The notes under the pieces: model-generated | The model's input: only the letters and a program-made list of their open reading frames with translations | What the model was told of the DNA's origin: nothing | Databases searched by the model: none | Position numbers and translations under genes: made by a program | Assembly: GCA_016758965.1 (NCBI GenBank) | Contig: JAEPRB010000058.1 | Span: forward strand, 120,978 to 184,977 | Source of the DNA: Circinella minor | Lineage: Eukaryota; Mucoromycota; Mucoromycetes; Mucorales; Lichtheimiaceae | Direction: 5' to 3' | Length of the DNA stretch: 64,000 nucleotides | Shown here: positions 1 to 63,230 of the stretch, piece after piece | Position numbering within the stretch: the stretch's first letter is position 1 | Layout of the letters: every line of letters starts with the position of its first letter

Positions 1-526
1 TAAAGATAATATACATCATCATCATCATCATCATTATGCGATCACAAGCACCTATTTAATACATTCTGATGTATTTATATTTATATATATAATTGATTTA
101 ATATATTTTTCATCATGCTAAAAGACAATTTTAAAGGGGATATGATGTTATCTGGTTTTTTTTTTTTTAAAAAAAAAAAAGACCGAGATTATGTATATTT
201 ATGTATGTATGTGTGTATAATGTTATTGTTATTGTTGTTGTGTCAATTTGGAAAGTATATAAGTTGATAAGAGAACAATTATAAATTGTACATTCTTCGT
301 TAAAGGAAAGAGGGGGGGGAAGAAGAGTAAAAAAAAGGGGGGGGGTGGAAAATATGTCAATAGTTACAAAAAAAAACTATTTCTCACTCTTTTAATACAA
401 AAAGAGAAAAATTATAAAATATTGCCTGTTTGATATATAATGTGTATATGTGATTCCTTTTTCTTTTTGGTTGTACAATATAAACAACAAAACTGGCATA
501 TATATAAATGTATATAAAATTGAATC
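1..526. other. AT-rich spacer, no gene seen
   Basis: Downstream flank of the first gene. It holds an ATC-type trinucleotide run at the left edge and several A, T and G homopolymers. I see no coding or RNA signal. Confidence 0.6.
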
Positions 527-2054
527 TTATAAAAACTCATACCGCAAATTTGACTCGCGTCGACGTTCACCACGAACAAAAGGGTCTTTACGTCGTGGTA
601 AGAAACCTCGCGGTTTTAAAGGACTCAACAATTTGCGAGCACGGATCATATTGAGCTCGGATGAAATGATTCGTAAATGATCTGGGTTGGATCGGGTATC
701 TCGGGTGTAAGTGTTCGTATCAGGATTAAACCTTGGTTGTGTTGTAGCTTCGGAACGTCGCCGTTGTGATGCCGGTCGACGAGGAGCAGGGGGCATTGGG
801 ATAAGGCCTTCTTTCTTAGTTGGTTTTGTTGGTTTAGATGGAGTAATGGTGGATGAGACTGGGGATGACACTGATGATGACAGAACCAGTGACCGACGAA
901 GCTGTGCTATAGTTTGTACCCATCGCACCTGATGTGTATTAGATTGCTGTGGTGGTGATGATGATAGGATAGGTTTTTTGGTTGTCCATGTTGACGGTGT
1001 TTGTGCCTTGGAAAAAGATGAAATCGAATGTCGACGTACCAACGACTTTTCATTATCAGTTAATGCCGCACTTTTAATACTAAGTTCATCATCATCAATA
1101 TCGTCGTCGTCATCGTCATCTTCATCCTCTTCTTCTCCATCACTTTTCCAGTTTGGATGCATTCGTCGTCCACCTTTTAGTCTAGTATGATGGCGAGGAA
1201 TTACTTGTACTTCATCGTCTTCTTCCTCATCCAAATCTTCCTCTAATCCTTCGTCATCCTCAAGATCTTCATCATCTGCTTCATCCACAGTTTGGACTTG
1301 AGCAAGGTCATTTTCACGCAGTCCAGTAGTAGTAGGTCGACCAGGAATAGCTATAGGCTCACTGGGAGTAGCACTTAATGAAGGAGGCGGCATATGCAAC
1401 GGCAGGACCTGCGTCAAAAAGTCCGCCGACAGGAACGATTGAAATGGTGATTTGCGTATCTAAAACATTTCAAACAAGAAACAAACGGGAGAAAATAGAA
1501 GAAAACAAGAAAAAAAAAGAACGAGTATTATTATTAAAAGATATGAATTTAATAAATACAAAAAGAAAAAGAACCATTCATGAAAATGAACTGCACAATC
1601 AATTAATCCCTCAGAGCGTACACACACACACACACTCTCTCTCTCTCTCCAAGAAAGATAATAATATAATAGAGTAATATATTACCAATTCCTCTTCGTC
1701 TGGTAAACTCTCTTTACTGTCTACTACAATCCAATCTTCAACATGGGACATTCGACGCATTGGTTTTTGTTGTTCGGGATCGGGTGGGGAAGCGGAAGAT
1801 TTTTGTTGTTGCCGCTTTTGTTGTCCATGTTTCCTTTGTCGAGACTTTCCCTGAGTTCCCATTCCCTTTTGATGCCGTCCACTGTTTTTCTTTCTGCGCT
1901 TTTTCAATAACGGCGGAATGTCGCCATACGGTTTAGGAGCTTGAGCAGCAAGCTGTTTAATAATCTCCTTGTATGAGGACGGCTGCTCTTCACTCATCAT
2001 GTCATGGATTGGAAATGGTTCTGAGCAAGAAGCTGACAACAAGGTGGGCATCAA
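527..2054 (-). CDS. Acidic low-complexity protein of unknown function, two exons
   Basis: Not recognised. I join exon 1 (2054-1686) and exon 2 (1459-527) across an intron at 1685-1460 that starts GTAATA and ends TTTTAG. The exon lengths sum to 434 codons (433 aa) with the frame kept. The N-terminus has a lysine/arginine/glutamine-rich stretch, the middle has a long Glu/Asp run (about residues 170-230), and the C-terminus is Ser/Thr/Pro-rich and ends in a basic segment. This layout suggests a nuclear or nucleic-acid-associated protein, but that is inference. The intron carries CA and CT microsatellites. An internal Met about 18 residues in could be the true start. Confidence 0.7.
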
Positions 2055-2237
2055 TAAAGAAGAGAAAAAAGGTTGAGGGGTGAAGGTAGGTTTGGTAAAA
2101 TAGGACTTGAAAAAAAAAATTCAAGGCGTCCCCTCGCTCTCACTCACTTACCTACTCACTCACTCACTCATTCATTCAAAATCACCTATTATGTTCCCAA
2201 ATAGTCACATAGTGAACCATTTTTTTTTCTTTTTCTA

Positions 2238-2270
<33 letters not shown>

Positions 2271-2693
2271 TCTTATCCAACAATAACAATAAACAATCAT
2301 TTTTCATTCTTTTTTACGCCCAAACTCCAAATTCAAACGCCTAAAGAAATATATATAAAGTATGAAACTTTTCCCTTTCTCCCTCTCCTGTATGTTACCA
2401 TGATATGTATATTTTTTTTTGTTTATCAACTCCAAAAAAAAAGTAGTGTGTTACTAGGCAACAATGAAAAATGATTCCCATGTTATCTAAAATAGGGATC
2501 CAATGTAACAGCTGTGCATTATAACGCACAGCACATGAGAAAACTGATGTTACTAATATTATTACAGGTTTATGTGTATATGAGGGTAATGGGTGGGGTA
2601 TCTTTTGGGTTATGAGCTCCAAGTTCAGCCTCCATATATATATATATATATGTAACAACCCTTTTTTTCTATAACACCCTACTACTAATTCAT
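2055..2693. other. Spacer with ACTC repeats and a long T run
   Basis: Likely promoter region of the acidic-protein gene and 3' flank of the J-domain gene. It holds a degenerate CACT/ATTC tetranucleotide repeat at about 2148-2178 and a T run at about 2240-2262. A 104-codon open frame at 2395-2709 overlaps the J-domain gene end, is rich in Ile/Tyr/Phe and looks fortuitous. Confidence 0.5.
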
Positions 2694-3185
2694 TTAAGCT
2701 TTTCGCCATTGACGATAACTTGTACCATTAGCTTGTTGTTGTTGTTGCTGCTGTAGTTCTTCTTGTAACTTTTGTTGTTGCTGCCATGTAGATTGATATT
2801 TTGTTGAATCTAACTTCACAATGTCATTCTTTTCCGGCTCGAAACGTGAATAGGCAATGATTGTCGTTACCATTGCAATACCCGTAAACAGTGACCACTT
2901 TGACCATTGTTGTTGCTCTTCCGGTGACGCTCCTCGTTGTGCTTCTGGTGGTCTGTCTTCCCATGATCCTCCTGGTCTGTTTGATGCAAAATACGATTCT
3001 TTTCCAGTCAAACGTCGATACGCTGCTGTGATATCTCGAATGTCTATTGTGCCATCATTATTACTGGCTACGTCTGGATGATATTTTTTACAAAGTTCTA
3101 TATATCGTTTCTTAATTTCTTTTTTTGATGCGGTTCGAGCTACTCCTAATAATTGACGATCTTTTAAACGAGATATTGTTGACAT
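2694..3185 (-). CDS. J-domain (DnaJ-type) membrane protein
   Basis: A 163-aa single-exon protein. The N-terminal 60 residues form a J domain with the HPD tripeptide at about residues 36-38, which is the motif that stimulates Hsp70 ATPase activity. A hydrophobic segment at about residues 97-112 is a likely single transmembrane helix, and the C-terminal tail is a Gln-rich coiled-coil-like stretch. There is no Gly/Phe region or zinc finger, so it is a class C J protein. J domain plus one helix is seen in small ER or mitochondrial co-chaperones, and I cannot choose between those locations. Confidence 0.85.
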   Translation of the reverse strand: MSTISRLKDRQLLGVARTASKKEIKKRYIELCKKYHPDVASNNDGTIDIRDITAAYRRLTGKESYFASNRPGGSWEDRPPEAQRGASPEEQQQWSKWSLFTGIAMVTTIIAYSRFEPEKNDIVKLDSTKYQSTWQQQQKLQEELQQQQQQQANGTSYRQWRKA

Positions 3186-4952
3186 GATAATGTGGTTCTT
3201 TTAAAAAAAAGGAGAAAAAGTCCATATATATTATGTGGCCCCACTTTCTTTTTTTTTTTTTGAAATTCAGCAAAAACTTTTGAAATGAATCACTTTTGGG
3301 TTCGACAGGTTTTATTTCTCTTGTTCTACATTGCACTGTATTGTTTTCTTTCCCACAGAATTCATACATGGTTGATAAGCGGTATACATAAGTTCAACAG
3401 TCATTGAGTAATAAAAACACATACAGAATACAAAATATGGTGGATCTAAATCGTATATTTTATTACTCTTTCTTGGAACCTTCAAGGCTTTTTTTTTGTT
3501 TCATTTTACAATGATATGAGTAGCACCACTTCACATTACTTTTACGAATTATTAAAGGTATGAAATTAAACAATAAACTTCAAACTCCCAGGGTACGAAT
3601 AATAAGAAAAAGTAATGACTCGTTTCATATAGTGTTTGTAAACGAAAGAACCTGGTTTTCGGAAACAATCCAGTGCAGGAAGTTTATACGCATAACAAAT
3701 ATAAGAAATAAAACTCGACGTTACATGTGGTTGAAAAAAAAAACCAAAACATTTCAGTTCTCCATTTTTCATTGTAACTAAAGTAATAATATTTATAGAA
3801 ACCTACATAAAAGATATCATAAGCAGTTCCTCCAAAGTGCCCACGATTCATGAACACAAGATCCACACGATTCATTTACTTGTGTAACTTTCCTCCTATT
3901 TTCCTCATGCATTATTTTGTTACTGTGTGAAAGGTGAGGTTGAATATGCTTCGCATAAAAATTCTTCGAGCTATATAAATAACTATGCGTTAACATTAGT
4001 TTCATTATGATCATATATATATATATATGCAGATCTGAATATCTCTATGAAAAAATATACTGCTATAATAATATGTCATTTTTTATACTGATTATTATTA
4101 TTTTGAAAAAAAAATTCATTTATATACATGTTAACATGAAATATAATTCGAAAACTTAGAATTCGGACCCTTCCGGTTTAATGCTCATGCTTATTGCTCG
4201 CGTACCCTCATCCTATGCTCTCAGATACTTGTTTTTTGTTTACATATTGTGCATATCGAGGATGGAATTTATTGTGTATTGACACCATATTTATTTATAT
4301 ATTCTATCCACAAGTTGTTCTTACATAATGGGTAACAAGATCAAAATGATATCTTGAAAAAGCTGTCAGTATATAAATTAGCTTATATGGTTTTTTACAA
4401 ATTGCATATGAAAAGCAGGTGCGTCACTGATTCTATGCCTGAAAAAAACGTCATGAGTAACTAGTACAAAATAACCTGCTAAAAAAAATGGGTGAGGTAA
4501 CGGATTCGTTTCAATAGGTATTATGTTGGTTTAAACTGCTATATAGTTTCTGATGAGTAAATATGAATTACCAATCTGTACTTTTATTTTTATCGAATGA
4601 CTTTTTTTCTTTTTTTATATTAACGAAAAAAAGAAAGAAGAAAGAAGGGCGTTAATATATAGTTTATCGGAGACCTATAAGAGTTGATAATATTTCATTA
4701 TAATAAATTTGTTTACATTCAAAATTTGTGGATGGTGCATGTTGATAATAAAAATAACTGAAAATAATCTTATTAGCGAAGGCCATGGGAACAAAGCATG
4801 AGTGCTTACTTTTTTTTCTTTCCTCTTTGGTTTGATTTCCGTGTGAAATCCCCGCAATGCATAATTAAACAAAATTCAGATAAATCCACCGCTTTTTTTT
4901 TTATTTACCCTCTTTTTCCCGTTCTTTCACTTCCTTAATAAAAATAAAAATC
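3186..4952. other. Long AT-rich spacer between divergent genes
   Basis: A 1.77 kb region upstream of both the J-domain gene and fumarase, so it probably carries both promoters. Open frames here are short, Phe/Tyr/Ile/Asn-rich and overlap on both strands, as expected for random AT-rich DNA. There is a short TA run near 4014-4028. No gene is supported. Confidence 0.6.
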
Positions 4953-52182: not shown

Positions 52183-52380
52183 GGTGTTCAAACCCACTAC
52201 TGCTGCTGCCCAACAAACATTTCAACTTACTTATGAATCCTGTGCTAAAAATACTAAAAGATCCTATGTGCCAAAGCAAGAAGAATTCTTTGACTAGTGT
52301 CGCCGTTGTTGTTCTCCAGACCATACTCAACTTTTGATTGATGATGCCAAACTACATTTTTTTTGGTTGAAAAGGTAAAA
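52183..52380 (+). pseudogene. Crypton/Ndc10-type tyrosine recombinase relic, 5' part
   Basis: Encodes PTTAAAQQTFQLTYESCAKN, a short gap, then SYVPKQEEFFD, a TAG stop, and HTQLLIDDAKLHFFLVEK. This is the core-binding N-terminus of Mucoromycota Crypton-like recombinases, as I recall them. The coding match stops at a GTAAAA that looks like an intron donor. Its continuation is at 56545. Confidence 0.55.
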
Positions 52381-52676
52381 CACCTAACTTTTATAAGTCT
52401 TATACATGAGCTTATTTCTGCTATATACTAACCTTGTACATTATTATTGGAGGCCTGCTATTAGTGGTCTAGCCATTTAGGATCTACTAGCTATTATGTG
52501 GCTAATAAATTTGCTATGGACAGTATAGCCATATGTGGCCGAACTAAAAATTTTACATTTAAATTAAAAATAAATAAAAATTGAATTTTTTTATTTATAT
52601 TGGTAGCCTCCCAAGAGAAAAAAAAGAGCCTGTATTTAAAATACATAATATTATTAACACAAACAAACAAAACACA

Positions 52677-54155
52677 ATGCAATACACTGAACAACTTGAC
52701 ACTGAAGTTAAAAATTTAGTTAGTACTAAATGGGGTTTTCTAGGAAAACCATGGCCTAAAATCCATCACAGATTTAATCATGGAACAGTTATAAAGGATA
52801 TGAAGGGTAATACACTTAATGAAATTAAGGAAGTATTACTTAATAGGTTTGGATTTATACTTGTGTTTTATTTCCTTACTGTTTTGTATGGAAATGTTGA
52901 ATATCCAGGACCATATCGAGAAATAGAAAAGGGACTTGTATTATTATACCATATGGTATCAGGTGAATCAGGAAAGGATATGCACAAAGTGATGCCATAT
53001 GCAACATTTTATGATTTATACAAGAGGTTTTGGATTACCAATTATAGTGAGTTGAATAAAAAGGTAAAACAGGACCTCAATGTTATGTTCTCATCACCAC
53101 GTATACGCATTCTTGCATCATTAATAAATAATCCAGATGGTTTTAAAAATGTCACACTATTTATTGATGGACATGATAGTAAAATAAAGTATTATAAACC
53201 AAGTGAATCACATTCGCTACTATACTCATATAAATTGAAAGGACCAGCAGTTCGTACACAAGTTATACAGGATATGAATGAAATAATTACATATGTTCCT
53301 GTATCTGAAAAGTATGCAGTTGGGAATGATGGTACAATGTTCATACAAATAAAGTTATATAATAAAATTAGCGAGGCAGATTGTTTAGGTATGGATGGTG
53401 GTTATAACTTGTTCATACAAAAGTTTAAAGATAATGCAACAGATGCTGGTTATGATTTTTATGACCGAAATTTCTTACATCCTATAAGAAAAGAACCAGG
53501 ACAAAAATTAACACTAAATGTGACACACTTCAATAATAAGTTTGGGTCATTCCGTTCATTAATTGAAGCACAATTCTCTATGCTTGGCTCTAAGTTTGAA
53601 CGATTTAATAACAATCGTGCAGCATTACAAATATCTGATATAAAATACTATAATATTCAGTTTCGCGTTGCATGCATTCTTACTAACATCTGGCGATTTG
53701 TAGATAAGTATGATATAGAGGTACAGCCACACCATAATTTATGGTATGGAAAAGGTTTCGAATTTCCAAGTAAGAAAAACAAACTCGACTTGGCATTTTC
53801 AAATGAGCAAAAGGTAAATACTGAGTATGATGAAATGGTTGAAATGCAACAGAAGTTTTTACAGCTTAATATGAATCAGTCGATAGATATGGTTATTGAT
53901 AGTGAGGAAGATGCTGATGACAATTTATCAAAACGAAGAAGAAAAGCCACAAGAGGAGGACAAAGAAATAGACAGTATGATAACTCATATGAAATTGAGA
54001 TAATTGTAGGGCATGTATATACTAACAACAAATATATATTTGAGGTTAAGTGGGTTGGATACGATGCAACGGATAATAGCTGGTTAACAATTAATAAGTT
54101 TAATGATCGGGAAATGTTACATGAATATATGGCCACACATGACATTCAGCTCTAA
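52677..54155 (+). CDS. DDE transposase with C-terminal chromodomain
   Basis: A 492-aa intact frame. I start at 52677 (MQYTEQL), because the 32 codons upstream lack an ATG. A DDE-type core is visible: Asp164 in IDGHDSK, Asp240 in LGMDGGY and Glu297 in RSLIEAQF, with an SYKLKGP segment after the first Asp. The spacing and the Gly after Asp240 fit the Harbinger/IS5-like (DDE_Tnp_4) group, though I cannot settle the superfamily. A basic linker (KRRRK, about 419-423) precedes a chromodomain at about 438-490, with FEVKWVGYDATDNSW as its aromatic-cage strand region. Chromodomains bind methylated histone lysines and steer integration in some retrotransposons; here that role is inference. The stop lies 9 bp from the Rep stop. 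Confidence 0.82.
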   Translation: MQYTEQLDTEVKNLVSTKWGFLGKPWPKIHHRFNHGTVIKDMKGNTLNEIKEVLLNRFGFILVFYFLTVLYGNVEYPGPYREIEKGLVLLYHMVSGESGKDMHKVMPYATFYDLYKRFWITNYSELNKKVKQDLNVMFSSPRIRILASLINNPDGFKNVTLFIDGHDSKIKYYKPSESHSLLYSYKLKGPAVRTQVIQDMNEIITYVPVSEKYAVGNDGTMFIQIKLYNKISEADCLGMDGGYNLFIQKFKDNATDAGYDFYDRNFLHPIRKEPGQKLTLNVTHFNNKFGSFRSLIEAQFSMLGSKFERFNNNRAALQISDIKYYNIQFRVACILTNIWRFVDKYDIEVQPHHNLWYGKGFEFPSKKNKLDLAFSNEQKVNTEYDEMVEMQQKFLQLNMNQSIDMVIDSEEDADDNLSKRRRKATRGGQRNRQYDNSYEIEIIVGHVYTNNKYIFEVKWVGYDATDNSWLTINKFNDREMLHEYMATHDIQL

Positions 54156-54164
54156 ATTATTTTC

Positions 54165-55980
54165 TTACTTATTTTGCTTATTAAAAAACCTCATATTAAT
54201 ACCAATTGTATCAGCCTTTTGTTTATTAGCCCAACTATATTCATGCTTTACATATTCATTAGTTATATTTATGCTTGGTTTTGTATCCACTATTTCTTTT
54301 TTTATCTCAGACTCTTTTGTTACATTTTTATCACCTATTATGACCTGTTTGATAGCCTTTTGCATTTTAAAATAGTCTTTAGGCTGTATTTCTTCTATGA
54401 TTTGCTTATTCTTTCGTTTATTTTTATTACGTCTTCTTTTCTTTTTATGCTTTGGTATATTACTTTGTATGCTACAGTCACTGCTTTGTTCTGATTCAGA
54501 TGTACTGATATCTATATATTTATGTTTCTCTGTATCCTCTGGTGGATTGTCCCAATTTATGTCTTCAGTTATTAGCTCGTCACACTTTGTTTCATTTAGT
54601 ACATCTTCCCAGTTTCTACAATCTGTTGGTGCTGGTGACTTCACGGTTGACCATCCTCTATTAGTTTGCTTCGGCGGGTCATATTGTTTACTGTCCTGTA
54701 TATTATGATTATTATACTTTTCCTCTTGTTTTTTCATATATTCTTCTGAATCAGCTAGTTCCTGAAGCTCTTCTGCTCTTTTATCCATTGGTGTATATTT
54801 TTTCACACCATCTTGACCACTATTCTTAGCATATCGTATAAATGTATGCTGATCTTCGTATTCATTTTCATATTCATTTTTAAATAGATCCTCATACATA
54901 TCCATGTTTCCATAATATATAAATTTCTCTTCATAATCCTTTACATTCATTGTATATGAACTCCATATAATATGTCCTTGACGGTTTTTATCAACATATA
55001 TTATATATAAACGGTTTAAAGTTGGTTCTAGTTCATATATTGATTTATTCTTATATAACATATGAGGCATATAATTACTATTCAATATTATTGGCATATT
55101 CTTTTTTTTAGTAATTGACTTGGTAAATTTACCATTCAGTTTTAATCGTGTTCCTTCTCACATTTGGTTTAGAAATGTTAATTTGAAATCAGAACCCATT
55201 TCTTCATTATACATAAAGTCATAATCATCATCCTTATAATCTGACCAATCATTTTCTTTATTCATTAAATAAGCTCTATGACCACCTTGTTCTATCATAT
55301 CAATATTATATGTCTTACCTACATTTGATGGACCTACAATCCAGTATTGTGGTATCTTATTTTTACCGCTAAACATAGTTTCAATACCAAATATAAAGCA
55401 CATATATAATTTACTTCCAGGATTATTTTCCATTTCAGTATGTATCATGGAAATAACTATTTAGGTTTGATTTCACAGTGTCATATTTCCATAATAATTC
55501 TGGATACATTTGTGTTGCTTTGGTCATTGTTATTGTTCTATTTATTAAATTATAACCGAGAAGTTGTTGGTGCATTTTTCTGGTCTTAATTTCAAAATTC
55601 GGATCCATATTGTAAGAAATATAATTATTTCCTTTCATACAATAGCTAATTGCCTTTTGTGGGTTACCACCAGGTTTCATATTTGGTGGTACACCATCAA
55701 TAGTAAAGAATTTGCGTGCTGATTTTGTATCAAATCGTTCATTCATTTGTATCCATATATGTACATGTTTTTCGCCTGTTTCTGGAGCAGTTTCATTACA
55801 TGCAATTGCCTTTTCAATATGATAACCAATCCGGTCATTTTTTACAAACCACTCCAGAACCTGTTCTTTTGTTAGGTGGAAATCTTTACAAATATATGTG
55901 AATAAGCCCTTTGTATTCTGAAATCTGAATTCTTTTCCGCCCTGCGAGGTAACCGCACTGGAAGTGACCCCATCTAACAT
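54165..55980 (-). pseudogene. CRESS-type Rep (HUH endonuclease + SF3 helicase), interrupted
   Basis: Single-stranded DNA replication initiator of the geminivirus/genomovirus-like type. The first frame (55980-55435) has HUH motif I (GLFTYICKD), motif II with the HxH (KHVHIW), and motif III with Tyr-x-x-Lys (SYCMKG). The second frame (55448-55158) has the P-loop GPSNVGKT and a Walker B-like YDFMYNEE. The same frame resumes past a stop and holds the sensor-type motif C PIILNSN, then a long acidic/basic tail rich in Lys/Arg near the end. It is broken twice: a shift of frame at about 55440, with a 14-bp overlap between frames, and an in-frame TGA at 55158-55160. The nuclease domain alone is intact. 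Whether the two frames could be joined by splicing or slippage is unknown. Confidence 0.78.
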
Positions 55981-56016
55981 TGCATCGGAAAAATGAGGGT
56001 TTGAGGATTTGAGGAA

Positions 56017-56271
56017 TCATACAAATGCTCGAACTCTGCCCATAATCCTAGAGCGGCTTTGGTCCTTAATGTTTTTGTCTACTTTTGTATTTTTCAAGTC
56101 TTTTTCTAGTTCACCTTTCAACTGGTCAATGATAATTTTAGCATCATCAATATGATGATGATGTTCAGCAAGATGTTTTGCTCTTTCAATCAAGAGCGTC
56201 AATGTTATTCCTAAAATAGGAACAAATTCAGCCATAATGGCAATAAATGTGAGCAAATTGATTTGGTCCAT
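56017..56271 (-). CDS. Small membrane/coiled-coil ORF upstream of Rep
   Basis: 84 aa starting at an ATG at 56271. An N-terminal hydrophobic stretch (LLTFIAIMAEFVPILGITL) is followed by a charged helix with a His run (HHHH) and a basic C-terminus. It is on the Rep strand, 37 bp before the Rep start, inside the element. No family recognised. It could be a third gene of the element or chance. Confidence 0.4.
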   Translation of the reverse strand: MDQINLLTFIAIMAEFVPILGITLTLLIERAKHLAEHHHHIDDAKIIIDQLKGELEKDLKNTKVDKNIKDQSRSRIMGRVRAFV

Positions 56272-56544
56272 GTTATGTTGATAGTGTTGTATATGTGTAG
56301 TATTAAAAAATATAATAAATAAATTTGACTTTATATTTTGAGATGTTATTTTATATAATAAAAAAAAATTCAATTTTTTTTTTTTCGAAATTTTTAAAAG
56401 TATGCATGCCAAGACTATTATAAATAAATTAAATTAATAAAAAATAATTTGGCTATACCGTTTTGTCTTGGCTATCTATCCGACTAGTGCCAATAGACCA
56501 GAGCATAATCACTATAACCTCGACTGGTCCCTATTAATAGGTTG

Positions 56545-57790
56545 TTTTACATGATCATTAACAACCTGGAAAAAATAGAAAAGAACTGCCTATAAGACCG
56601 CCACCCTCATCTTCTGCCGCTGCTCTTGCTACTGCTAATAACACTGTGTCACCACTATCTTTACTATCTTCATCATCATCTGCTGCTGCTCCTACTACTG
56701 CTACCATTACGTCACAATTATCTTTAACATCTTCTTTTTTTGCTGCTGCTTGTGCTCCTGCTACCATTTTGCCATCCCCTGATGCTTCCAAGGAATCTGT
56801 TGCTGCTGATGCTGCTGATGTCACTGAACCTGTTTTATCTGCTGCTAATGGCAAAGTTGGGCTTGTCATAGTACTCGCATATACTTCTGCAATTATCGAC
56901 CTACATAAGCAACAAATGCATACAGATGAAAACTTTAATAAACAACATCCTCAGTGACCATATGATTAGGCTCTCTTAGATCGACTTTGACAAGAAGATG
57001 CAACGTGTAAACATGACAAAATGGAGGATAGAGGTGCAGGCACCATAGCAGATAGATACTTAACTACTAGTGAGATAAAGAGTGTTGTCAACTATTATTC
57101 TGGCAAGAACACTTAAGAAGGCCTAAGAAATTGTACCACATTTTTGTCACAACATTTTGGTCTGCTGTATGGGGAAAGTATTCAGATAATGGAATTTGCC
57201 GACTTACAAACAATGCTCCTTGAATGGAAAGGTATCATTGAGTGCTATGCATTAGTTATGGTTTTTTTACAAGGGAAAACAAACTAAGAAAGTCGTGTGG
57301 GATTTGCTGTATATATCCGAAACCATAATATTGACATATGTCCTCAAATAGCCCTTCCTTTTTATTTATTCTATTGTTACCACATTCAAGGTGAACTGTT
57401 TCCTAGTCTGAACCAAAACCAGGATTAGTACTGGCTCAAGTTAATTAAGTCTACAGACCTGACGATGGCTGAAATGTTGTATTCTCAACACCTTAATGCC
57501 ATATCTTCTGCATTCAAAGACAAAAACACAGACAATGTGTAGATCAAGAGCAAGTATGGCAGACCATTTAGAAATAAGTGAATAATCTATTCAATAATTG
57601 GGCAGGTAGAATAGTAATGCATTATTCAAGAAATATTTAACCAGTGTACCAAGAGAAGCATTGCGAACTCTGGCGGGTTTTACAGCAGAAGCGGGTCAAT
57701 TTTATCTATCTCATGCAGCTGGGATGCCACCACCAGAATTGCGTCAAAAGGTGTCTCCTTGGATTGATGTCTGAGACAGCGTTTAAACAA
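56545..57790 (+). pseudogene. Crypton/Ndc10-type recombinase relic, 3' part
   Basis: After an Ala/Ser/Pro-rich linker (56600-56860) come segments LAYTSAIIDLHKQQMHTDEN, FLSQHFGLLYGESIQIMEFA, ICPQIALPFYFFYCYHIQGE, LTMAEMLYSQHLNAISSAFK and VPREALRTLAGFTAEAGQFY. This is the C-terminal catalytic region of Ndc10_II/Crypton-like proteins. Many stops and a few frame changes make it non-functional. It is the continuation of 52183-52380, split by the composite element. Confidence 0.65.
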
Positions 57791-58249: not shown

Positions 58250-61200
58250 TTAATTTTTGCGCCCACGATATTTTGGTAGATGAACATTAGAAACAATAAA
58301 TAAAGGACCATCAGATGACGGACTTGATGGTTGGATTCCACGAGAGGAGGTTGGTTGTGGAGATGCTACTTGATTCGATGTTTGTATATTAGTAATATTA
58401 TCTTGAGCGTATGGTAAAGAACCAGTAGCAGTAATAGTGGATTGTGTAGTAGAAGGATAATATATCCAATGAGTAGTATCAGGCAATGATGTAGCGTGAT
58501 TTGTGCTCCAGGAGACAAGAGGGCGTGTAATAGATTGTCTTATAATAGATGATGACAATGATGATGATAAAGATATATTTGAGTTTGTTAAAAAACTTCC
58601 ATGTTGAGTAGTTGGATCTAGTTGCAGAGGATATGATGTTAATGGTTGTATAGCTGACATTTGCAAATTCGATGAGGATGATAATCTGTTTGAATCAGAA
58701 GTATTTGTCAATGTTGGTTGAGAAGCTATGTAAAGAGAAGGAGATGCTTGAGCAGTCATATTTTCATATCGAGGTACTTTGTTTGTGCTTGGCTTATTAG
58801 CACTTGGAGCTTTTCGTTTTCTATCTTCAGACGAAACTATATCATGTACTTCTTTTCTACTTTCAGAATTCATTGTCATAGATAACAATGCTGTTCTTAA
58901 TTGCTCATATTTTCCATTGTAACTACGAAGATGTTCTAGGGTTTTATAAAATATGTCTTCCCCGTTGACATATGTAGACCAATTCTTTGCAAATTTCATC
59001 CAATCTATTGTACAATTCTTATACGTTGTCTTCATTTTTTCGTCAAACAAATCGTTTTCCCTTTTTGTGTGTACAGGTAAAATTGCAAATTTTGTCCATT
59101 GCTTTTGTGCAATAAATCGATATCTTGCACCTTTTGTTGCTAGCGTGGATCCAGCGAATGTTAACAGTGCTGATGTTTCGAGTATTGAATTTATTATCAT
59201 AGAAAAGTCAACATTGTTGGCTTGTATGTTTTCATCTGAAGATACTACCTCAATTCCAAGTTCTTTAGCGAGATTCTCTTGTAAGGGAGAGATTCCAAAA
59301 ACTTCCTTAGATGGTTCAAAAAAAATAGCATTCTCATGGACTCCAGGGCTATCATAGGATTGTTCCATACCAAATGATCCACGCAAATCCAATATATGCT
59401 GAGTCAACCACAGTTCATAATGACCTTTGTGTACACGACCGTATCTATTGAAAGAACCAACCTAAAACAGAGAACAGTGTGAATTAATATAACTTATATC
59501 CTGTAAAAAAAACTTACGTCAATATTATGCCTGAGTCTATAATCTGCCATTACTCCGTCAGCTAATTCAGGACTTGCTCCAAAAGACATAAATTTGCAGA
59601 TGATATTTTGATGCAGTCCCCCCTCAAGAGAGTTTGTGCCACGACTACAGCGATATAAAGGAAGGTTATTCTTATCTTTTCCAATTTCAAAATAAAACGA
59701 TATTCCAGGGGGATCAGATACGTGACCAAGTTGGATAGTGTTTAAAACATTTTCAGACTGCCGCCATGCCTCATCGTCAAAAAGTGGTCTGCCAGTTTTT
59801 GCACATCTTAAGTACCCATACGTATCAAAAACCTTTTTTACTACAGGATATAAATCTTTTCCAGGGGGGATAACTCCTAATAATATTATTAGAAAGATGT
59901 TCATTTGCTATAATAATACTGGTGCACCAAATAAAATGTAATAAACTTACTTTTTACACGTCGAAGAACCCAAGTAGGATTTTGGTCCATCGTCATATCA
60001 AACGTCATATGTTTAGTTTTTAAGTATTCTTCTATCAAACGTTTATCATTTTTATCAATCAAAAAAATGGCGTCACGCAGACGTCATGCGAACTCTTTTG
60101 CCAATCCGTGCTTCCTAGGTACTTGAATCATATCCATTAAATGGAATGCATCTTTAAGAATACGTGATGGTAATGGATTTGATGAAGTTGTTGATGGTTG
60201 TGATGTTGTTGAAGAATTTATTTGTTCGTGTGTTACTGATACAGAATGTGGCCGATTAGAATTATTATTGCCTGTGCTTTCTTCATAATCTTTAATGGAA
60301 TCATCATCTTCGGAATCAGTGTCGTTATTATCAATATTTCAATTAATCAAATCGTCCAAAACAGCGCTACTATCTATTAATAGACAAATATGTATGATGA
60401 GTAAAACATCAATGGTCCTTTTTATTAATATACGTACCAGTTGTATTTGTTTCTGCTGTTATTGCTGTTGATGATGAAGTGTAAGTTATCCTTTGAGAAA
60501 TATTTCGTGATGAAACCTCAATTGGCTTGCTTGTTCGAAGATTCTTTAAATCAACAACAACATTAAATAGAGTATCACCAAATTCTCTTAGTGATTTTTT
60601 ATGAGCTTTTAATATTATAGCTGGCTTGAGTACTTGTTTAATTGTAACAATAGCTTGATTTTTTCCAACAGTTATATCACCAAGTACACGATCTTGTTTT
60701 GCTAATTCTCCATATGCAACAGCTTCCCATAATTTCTGTGGATGCACTGAAACATGGATACCTATGATTTTCTAATCCGTTAGCTTATATAATTCAAACT
60801 GTTTATATACCATATAAGGTATAATCCAATAATTTATATTTCTGTATGGATACCTTGTAAGGGTTTCAAAACTAACTTTCCAACAGGAAAGTAACGCGTA
60901 ATAACAGCGTTAAAAACATCCAAGCCAGCCCACGCGTCATGAGCAGCATATTCGATTTGTTGTGGAGAAAGGATATCAGAATCCCAATCACTTGAACGAA
61001 TATCATCAACTTTTGGTAATGAGCAACCTAGTACTTTTTTACAAATATCTGCAAGGCTCATCCTTGCATCATGAATGACATCTCTTTCTTTACAAAATCT
61101 GCCAAGTTCAAGATCTCCTTGACACAGGACACCGAAATCACGATGGATTTTAGCCAAATCTCCACCAACTGCTCGACCAACCTTTTTTATGTCCCCATCT

Positions 61201-63230
61201 TGCAAAAACCGTTGTAGTGGCTCTGGTAGTTCAGACAGGGTGGCAAGTTTCAATATCCATATATTACGGGATGTTGCAATTTGAATCAATGCAAGTTTTC
61301 CTTGTGTACCGGTATATTTATCATATGGCCATTCACAATCAAAGCCCACTACAAAAGCTATATAATAGTGTTAGTTAAAATATAAACTAATTGAAAATTA
61401 ATATAACTAATGATGTAAATACGTACGTTTATCTTCAAGCATTGTTTCAAATGTTCGTTTGATTTCATTATAAGTCGATAATATAATAATATTTACATTT
61501 TCAGGTATTGGAACAACAGGAAGCTGGTTATTGGTTTTGATATCGGAAAGCTTTACTGGTACGACATCTCGCGTCAGCGAGGGCAAAACACTAGAAAGGA
61601 AGGCTTGCTCCCCAGTAACATTATCTGTAAAAAATATTTCTGGATGATCATGGCCATACATGTTATATGCATCACGCATCGAATCAAAAGCAAATTTCAA
61701 ATGCTTTAGAGATTTCGTTGGGATCAAAAGTTGCATCCTAATCTCCTCATATTCATTACAAACCGTATAAACAGCAAGAAAAGTGGGTGATCCATCAATT
61801 CGACCAAGATGTTTAATAATCTTAAATGTATGATCCCCTTTCAATACCCGACCTCCTAAAACCATCACCTGTTTATCTATCAAATGACGTATTTCGTTGA
61901 TTATTATAGTATATATGGTATGTAAATACTGCCCTGAAGGTATGTATCCAGCATATCCATCTTTATCGTCATATGATGAAAATGTTTGAAATGTAGGTGG
62001 GCTAATGATTTCTTCAAGAGTTGGAGATGTACGGCGAGAATTAATGTAGTTAAGATATTGAAATTCAAGTCGTGCATGTGTCAATCTTTGTAACTCTTGC
62101 AAAACCTTTTGGAAGCGTTTTGGTCCGAGTGCATTTTGAACACAGGGTCTAAATACATCGCCAACATCCCTCGAAATACCTGTGCGATGCGTAAAATATG
62201 CTGGGAATTCTTGTTGAAGATATAGAGGTAGTTTCCTGATGATTCCTTTGTTGTGTCCACTCAGTGTTTTTTTACAATGCTTATTTGTACAAATATATGT
62301 CATTGACATTACATAAAAGTTTCTGATAAATAATTTGAGTACATATATCTTTCAGGTGAGTAACTAGTATGCTATGTATTTATCGGGTAATAAAGTAGTT
62401 TTACCTTTTCAAATCGACGACTCTACGTGCAGGAGGATTTTTTGGATAGCCATTGATTGTAAGATGACTCGTACAATTAGGTTCCTGACATTTAAGTTTA
62501 TAGTTAACCAAAAGGTGCAGAAGCCATAAAAAAACTTTTGGTAAGTAGAGCATAGCAGGGTCATAGTCGAAACTCTCGTCTGCGCGTAATGCTAGTATCT
62601 CTGGCGATGGATTACGTAAAGCAAAAAAAGGATCCGGTGGTAATGTCCAAAAGGTACCACGACTGTACTCTACTAGAAGACCTTCGCCACTATTCTTTTT
62701 ATCCCTAACTAATCTTTCTTGGATGCTCAAGAGATATTTGTGAAGAAATGTTTTTTTATTTTTGTTGTCGTTCCTGTTGGGATTATTCTTGTTGATGTTA
62801 TTGCTATTATTTTGAGCCGATTCATTTTGTTTTCCATTATCCTCTACGTCGGAATCGTCATCATTATCCGTTTCACAATCACTATTGTCATCATCAAAAT
62901 CAGCCATAATAGGTATTTGTGAAGTGTTGACAGGGGAATTGTTGTCTTCTTCCAGTATCCCAGAATCAACAAGAGAAATAAGCTTTCCTAAATCGACATT
63001 ATGGTCGCCATCTCCTATTTCATTGTCTTCTATATTAAATTGGCTTTTTTATATAAATGCTTAAATCAACATCTCAAAATGAATTTACCTTGTGAAGTAA
63101 CTGTTGAAGAGGATTCACCTTTTGAAGTACCCTCATTGTTGCTATTATTATTTATGCTATTATTCGAGAACCAATTTACAGCGACTGCCCAGGCATTTCC
63201 CAAAAAACGCGGGCACGTGATCTGAAGTAA
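58250..63230 (-). pseudogene. Large DUF6729/3'-5' exonuclease transposon gene with in-frame stops
   Basis: Blocks in 5'-to-3' order on the minus strand. First an acidic N-terminus, then a DUF6729-like zinc-binding region (FWTLPPDPFFALRN, CQEPNCTSHLTINGYP, RRVVDL; 62900-62400). Next YICTNKHCKKTL and AYFTHRTGISRDV, a DDE-like part with GDHTFKI and FFTDNVTGE (61407-62309), and a DnaQ/WRN-type exonuclease starting VVGFDCEWPYD with YAAHDAWAGLD at its end (60834-61349). The last part has SDPPGISFYFEIGKD and CSRGTNSLEGGLHQN (59494-59904) and a Ser/Thr-rich tail to 58250. Similar architecture is known in fungal mobile-element genes. Two TGA stops lie in the exon at about 59950-60380 (60339-60341 and 60084-60086); the rest is open across introns. 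The exact start near 63230 is uncertain. Confidence 0.65.

Follow-up and report, generated by a model that had tools for sequence, protein, structure and literature searches.

The transposon described here occupies positions 52449-56532 of a 64,000-nucleotide stretch of the Circinella minor genome (Mucorales; contig C58, positions 120978-184977), hereafter the window. It carries two genes arranged tail to tail: a DDE_Tnp_4 transposase with a C-terminal chromodomain on the plus strand and, 9 bp away in this copy, a Rep gene on the minus strand whose motifs place it in the geminivirus/genomovirus-like HUH-SF3 type. This arrangement, proposed earlier by a sequence-only reading, is confirmed. The transposase and Rep form one mobile unit, as seen from its copies, their common ends, 3-bp target-site duplications (TSDs) and a paralogue of the empty site. 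The element is probably a DNA transposon of the cut-and-paste kind in which the place of the second gene is taken by a Rep of the type found in circular Rep-encoding single-stranded DNA (CRESS) viruses. Its parts are as follows.

52449-56532: whole transposon, 4,084 bp, with ends common to copies on other contigs and exact 3-bp duplications.
Ends of the transposon: left end GGAGGCC..., right end (reverse complement).GGGACC..; imperfect terminal inverted repeat (TIR) of about 7 bp, GGRGRCC in most copies.
52446-52448: TSD, left copy, ATT.
56533-56535: TSD, right copy, ATT.
52677-54155, plus strand: DDE_Tnp_4 transposase with C-terminal chromodomain, 492 aa, open; recognised from Pfam, invariant columns, a structure model and a fold match.
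53988-54128, plus strand: chromodomain; Pfam match at residues 471-517 of the stop-to-stop frame, fold match at about residues 436-488 of the 492-aa protein.
54168-55157, minus strand: Rep C-terminal piece, with SF3 motif C (IILNSN) and a long charged tail.
55161-55460, minus strand: Rep SF3 helicase piece, with Walker A GPSNVGKT and a Walker B-like region.
55435-56013, minus strand: Rep HUH endonuclease piece, with FTY (motif I), HVH (motif II) and YCMK (motif III); Gemini_AL1 and solved Rep matches.
56020-56271, minus strand: Rep N-terminal extension, continuous with the HUH domain in copies L002 and L033 and cut off by an in-frame stop in the window copy.

The assembly searched (46.6 Mb in 619 contigs) is that of this one genome; it is fragmented and may be incomplete. 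The element query yields 55 matches in it, many of them fragments. A second full-length copy lies on another contig, C496 (93% identity over positions 26-4119 of the 4,141-base query), and at a third locus, C524, the match spans the transposase-Rep junction. With the junction spanned at three loci (C58, C496 and C524), a chance neighbourhood or an assembly artefact is ruled out. The element ends coincide among copies compared across contigs. An exact 3-bp TSD flanks each of the seven copies (two long, five short) for which both ends could be located, and duplications of 4 to 7 bp flank none of the seven; L029, with diverged ends, and L017, whose left end was not found, were left unscored, and the other copies are one-ended. 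The duplicated trimers are ATT, ATA, AGA, TAT, AGT, TAT and AAT, with A or T always at the outer positions. As an off-diagonal control, mismatched left and right flanks agree in 2/42 pairings, and seven matched duplications are reached in 2 of 5,040 permutations, a count of two because TAT is present twice.

A paralogous site on C284 lacks the insertion. The joined flanks of the window copy align to it over 605 columns, of which 450 are identical and 70 are gaps, six of the gaps falling at the junction; the paralogue alone does not prove the duplication. It encodes an NDC10_II (Crypton-type) protein (E = 5.5e-62), which supports a Crypton relic around the insertion. The earlier suggestion that both genes arrived together inside such a gene is thus borne out by copies, ends, duplications and the empty-site paralogue. 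On visual inspection, the element sits in an intron of the Crypton-type gene, close to the 3' end of that intron, with TACTAAC before the element and ATAG after it (52370-52448 and 56533-56550). Elsewhere, at L020 (C393:22536-23047), two element left ends lie close by in opposite orientations.

The transposase matches DDE_Tnp_4 in Pfam with an E value of 3.3e-8. Residues D164, D240 and E297 are invariant over 33 sequences (the window and 32 of its 87 relatives) and are candidates for the DDE triad, of which the L002 transposase has lost the second aspartate. Named relatives of the transposase include proteins from Lichtheimia, Phascolomyces, Mucor, Apophysomyces and Mortierella. Between the window and L010, the ratio of nonsynonymous to synonymous substitution rates (dN/dS) is 0.17. 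No match to the transposase was found among phage records. The five viral structures that best match the structure model ma13a11c5e0b9 are DDE transposases of giant viruses; one, from Bodo saltans virus, bears the annotation D5 family helicase-transposase and likewise pairs a helicase with a DDE transposase.

In the Rep of the window copy, the SF3 piece uses a frame unlike that of the HUH piece and meets an in-frame stop at its end, and the copy no longer encodes an intact protein. The small open reading frame (ORF) noted upstream of Rep by the sequence-only reading is the Rep N-terminus: a separate small gene is ruled out, since the frame reads through to the HUH domain in L002 and L033. The HUH piece has motifs I-III, and the SF3 and C-terminal pieces have SF3 motifs A and C in order. 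Among the fetched copies covering them, the window included, FTY is kept in 6/6, HxH in 5/6 and YxxK in 6/6, the second histidine being lost in L007 (HVY); Walker A GKT and the motif C asparagine are each kept in 4/4, and the Walker B-like acidic pair is altered in L005. The HUH piece matches solved structures at E = 1e-7, the best chains being named Replication-associated protein, and Pfam Gemini_AL1 and Viral_Rep match Rep pieces below cut-off.

Across the assembly, the Rep HUH domain is present at six places and leaves one further trace in a short element; the Rep C-terminus is found on six contigs, and the two together cover eight contigs. All these places also match element DNA, and the transposase adjoins Rep at three of the eight. 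No Rep was found outside the element family in this assembly. A Gemini_AL1 profile scan of the whole assembly gives four places, all within the family and all under the Pfam cut-off; the scan misses two of the six known HUH places and is not exhaustive. The six Rep relatives in the protein database are all from Circinella minor, Rep beyond Circinella being hardly covered by that search, and IMG/VR yields no tblastn-confirmed relative of Rep or of the transposase. The sequence-only reading had held that Rep alone at unrelated loci, or transposase copies lacking Rep, would speak for a chance combination. In this genome, Rep occurs only inside the element family, but Rep-less transposases do exist, Rep being found at 3/40 transposase places.

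Substitution patterns indicate that Rep was under purifying selection between diverged lineages in its HUH and SF3 parts. For the HUH domain, dN/dS between the window and L006, L005 and L002 is 0.11, 0.10 and 0.09, respectively (dS 0.92-1.07; 95% intervals within 0.05-0.18), and 0.24 against L008. The SF3 piece gives 0.10 against L002 and 0.14 against L008, and the C-terminus 0.29 against L025. None of 500 resamples reaches a dN/dS of at least 1 in any of the eight comparisons of HUH, SF3, C-terminus and transposase. Close copies (dS < 0.2) give 0.31-1.83 for transposase, HUH and C-terminal pairs, the higher ratios being as expected for decay after insertion.

Comparison with related transposases places Rep in a slot that is otherwise held by a different gene. 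Rep is convergent to the transposase at the 3/40 places at a spacing of 16-19 bp. At ten of the 40, a small Cys/His ORF is convergent instead (nine within -1 to 176 bp and the tenth 1,002 bp away), and at one it lies on the same strand, 992 bp off; 26 places, many of them partial matches, have neither. The 40 places were merged by hand from 75 rows, and a further set of 30 rows was merged to 25; four rows matching the C-terminal part only (C577, C420, C390 and C450) are omitted, and a similar row, C219, is kept. The other transposases of the family that lack Rep belong mostly to diverged sister lineages. Three near the Rep lineage (C91, C239 and C472) lack it as well; there the match is confined to the transposase, and C472 is at a contig end. 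No Pfam family convincingly matches the Cys/His ORF, and 'zinc finger' would be a reading of its motif CTHxxxxG...C...C..H.

A tree was built that combines 15 transposases from this genome with 24 of the 87 proteins from the database, the database entries being unlabelled as to their second gene. The Rep clade (window, L002, L003, L004 and L010) has a support of 1.0 and lies among Cys/His-bearing lineages. This nesting points to a single replacement, and by parsimony Rep probably replaced the Cys/His gene once. Among the sister elements, L022, L038, L028 and L041 carry a chromodomain DDE_Tnp_4 transposase and a small, usually convergent Cys/His gene with no Pfam family above cut-off. The GGRGRCC pattern found no sister-element ends in 10/10 loci tried; the left ends of L022 and L015 begin GGAGA.

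The Rep region also has a mosaic structure. Identity between the window and L002 is 90-99% over most of the element and 74-90% over about 55250-56050 (100-base steps). The HUH domain of L005 resembles that of L002 (87-100%, 40-base steps) and is 48-75% identical to the others over 56030-56150. From these identity steps, the lineages seem to have exchanged Rep segments. One edge of each mosaic block falls at about 55950-56030, in a stretch that is also common to short elements.

55938-56030, minus strand: block common to the 1.1-kb elements, at the edge of two mosaic blocks, with CCTCAAAT-like tandem 8-mers.

The 8-mers of this block are present in three tandem copies, one fewer in L008; they are iteron-like and also coding, the block being translated both in Rep and in the protein of the short elements. 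These elements, of 1.1 kb (L011, L012, L014, L018, L021 and L029, on C479, C576, C45, C297, C275 and C19), have in common with the transposase-Rep element both ends (diverged in L029) and an internal block of 69-86 bp. They encode another protein, open in L029 (258 aa), without a Pfam family above cut-off. Its dN/dS is 0.12-0.45 in those pairs that have dS > 0.2 (17 of 21), L017 included. The 1.1-kb elements are satellites with a selected gene.

In the mechanism proposed, the first step is strongly supported: the chromodomain DDE transposase would recognise the short ends, excise the element and insert it with a 3-bp duplication, while the chromodomain, judging from its domain family, probably tethers it to methylated histones. 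In the second step, supported by comparison and parsimony, a geminivirus/genomovirus-like Rep would have taken the place of an ancestral convergent Cys/His gene in one lineage. In the third, also supported, Rep would have retained its catalytic function as the lineage diverged and segments were exchanged within it. In the fourth, Rep would nick and unwind element DNA, and excised or donor DNA would be copied before or around reinsertion, raising copy number. This copying of element DNA by Rep is put forward tentatively, at slightly under an even chance; the kept catalytic motifs favour a nicking and helicase role and thus replication of the element. A fuller version is more speculative: DDE excision and integration would be joined to rolling-circle copying by the captured CRESS Rep, turning cut-and-paste into copy-and-paste and also serving the 1.1-kb satellites.

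The main alternative for the fourth step, which we consider somewhat unlikely, is that Rep acts as a DNA-binding accessory of the transposase in the job of the Cys/His ORF2, its catalysis being incidental. The second proteins of PIF/Harbinger elements act as DNA-binding accessories of this kind, and the slot position favours such a role here: Rep occupies the same slot, in the same convergent orientation, as the Cys/His ORF of the sister elements, and by eye its tail has a basic stretch resembling a nuclear localization signal. However, the motif III tyrosine and lysine (6/6), Walker A (4/4) and a dN/dS of about 0.1 over HUH and SF3 argue for catalysis, not binding alone. The replication and accessory roles are compatible. 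It is improbable that Rep is passenger cargo that serves a separate function, perhaps one directed against related viruses or rival elements; Rep is selected, and the short elements move without it in cis, but it sits in the accessory-gene slot and is found only inside the element family. The least probable account is a chance integration of a virus or Rep plasmid into an older transposon, after which the two were amplified together with Rep playing no role; this would suit the Rep-less family transposases and the failure to find an intact Rep, but purifying selection on HUH and SF3, with HUH dS near 1, needs long functional use.

Several results weigh against the account proposed above. The main one, against replication itself, is that no convincing CRESS-type origin was found. 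NANTATTAC occurs once, within the ORF of the transposase; the diverged relative L010/L024 does not retain it, and it is equalled in 129/1000 shuffles; sites of a looser pattern exist, conservation having been checked for NANTATTAC only. A CRESS nonanucleotide origin at 52831 is rejected, as the site is not conserved and some shuffles match it. The virus-derived replication step suggested by the sequence-only reading is therefore possible and unproved. The insertions look like DDE products, so that Rep would be required at no step, and short elements with the same ends, which make up five of the seven duplication-bearing copies, lack both Rep and transposase; Rep is thus not needed in cis. At five of the eight Rep places no transposase adjoins: four matches stop inside Rep and one, on C427, at the Rep end. 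An intact full-length Rep is seen nowhere in the assembly; on C391, the N-terminal and HUH frame is open but cut within SF3. The SF3 assignment rests on motifs, the Pfam RNA_helicase match of the window piece (E = 0.082) being under cut-off. Two SF3 pieces of L002 give nothing in Pfam or NCBIfam, and one of them, compared with solved structures, gives nothing there. The Rep structure model is useless (AlphaFold mean predicted local distance difference test score 34). The transposase dN/dS was computed against L010, a decayed copy that has lost the DDE residues. Support at the next deeper node of the tree, above the Rep clade, is only 0.44.

The element resembles several known systems in part. 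PIF/Harbinger elements have a 3-bp TSD, a TWA target and a Myb/SANT second protein. The DDE_Tnp_4 domain, the second gene and the 3-bp TSD (7/7) are similar here, whereas none of the seven duplicated trimers is TWA, the transposase is fused to a chromodomain, and the second gene is Rep; no Myb family turned up when the Rep pieces and three Cys/His ORFs were scanned against Pfam. Helitrons have an HUH domain fused to a Pif1-type helicase and no TSD, unlike this element, which has 3-bp TSDs and in which Pfam scans found no HUH-Pif1-type family. CRESS-DNA virus Reps are alike in HUH motifs I-III, in the order of the SF3 motifs and in being the best solved-structure matches; the N-terminal extension of about 110 aa, the long charged C-terminal tail and the lack of a convincing stem-loop origin differ. 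No capsid gene is recognised, no capsid-family scan having been made, and the element's other frames of at least 80 aa overlap the two genes in antisense.

The sequence-only reading knew of no transposon with both systems. This does not hold, as such an element has been described in the truffle Tuber melanosporum (PMC3198968, Liu et al. 2011). In the available text of that paper, it is drawn from 42 Rep genes or remnants and has a geminivirus-like Rep ORF, two transposase ORFs, 37-bp TIRs and no obvious TSD. It is the one precedent found in the open-licence literature. Both are multicopy fungal transposons with a geminivirus-like Rep and a transposase between terminal inverted repeats. As far as the truffle element is known from this description, the Circinella element differs in its ends (imperfect TIRs of about 7 bp), its 3-bp TSDs, its host phylum (Mucorales, not an ascomycete) and its layout, with a single chromodomain DDE_Tnp_4 transposase tail to tail with Rep. 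Teratorn, in the available text of PMC10175614, is a 180-kb element in which a whole herpesvirus is joined to piggyBac, and is described there as the first case of a cut-and-paste transposon fused to a DNA virus. It likewise joins such a transposon to virus replication functions, here reduced to a single Rep gene in a 4-kb element. No element of this kind is named in the available text of a study on HUH replicons published in Nature Communications in 2019 (PMC6668415).

This element shows a viral-type replication gene established in a transposon's accessory-gene slot and maintained there under selection, not merely as a fossil. The interconversion of single-stranded DNA viruses and transposons thereby becomes testable in a mould. 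Taken with the truffle case, it suggests either that fungal transposons captured Rep repeatedly or that the capture is old. Elsewhere in the window, at 60834-62351, a 3'-5' exonuclease (PF01612, E = 1.9e-20) lies beside a DUF6729-like frame just under cut-off, and this pair is perhaps another multi-gene element of the fungus.

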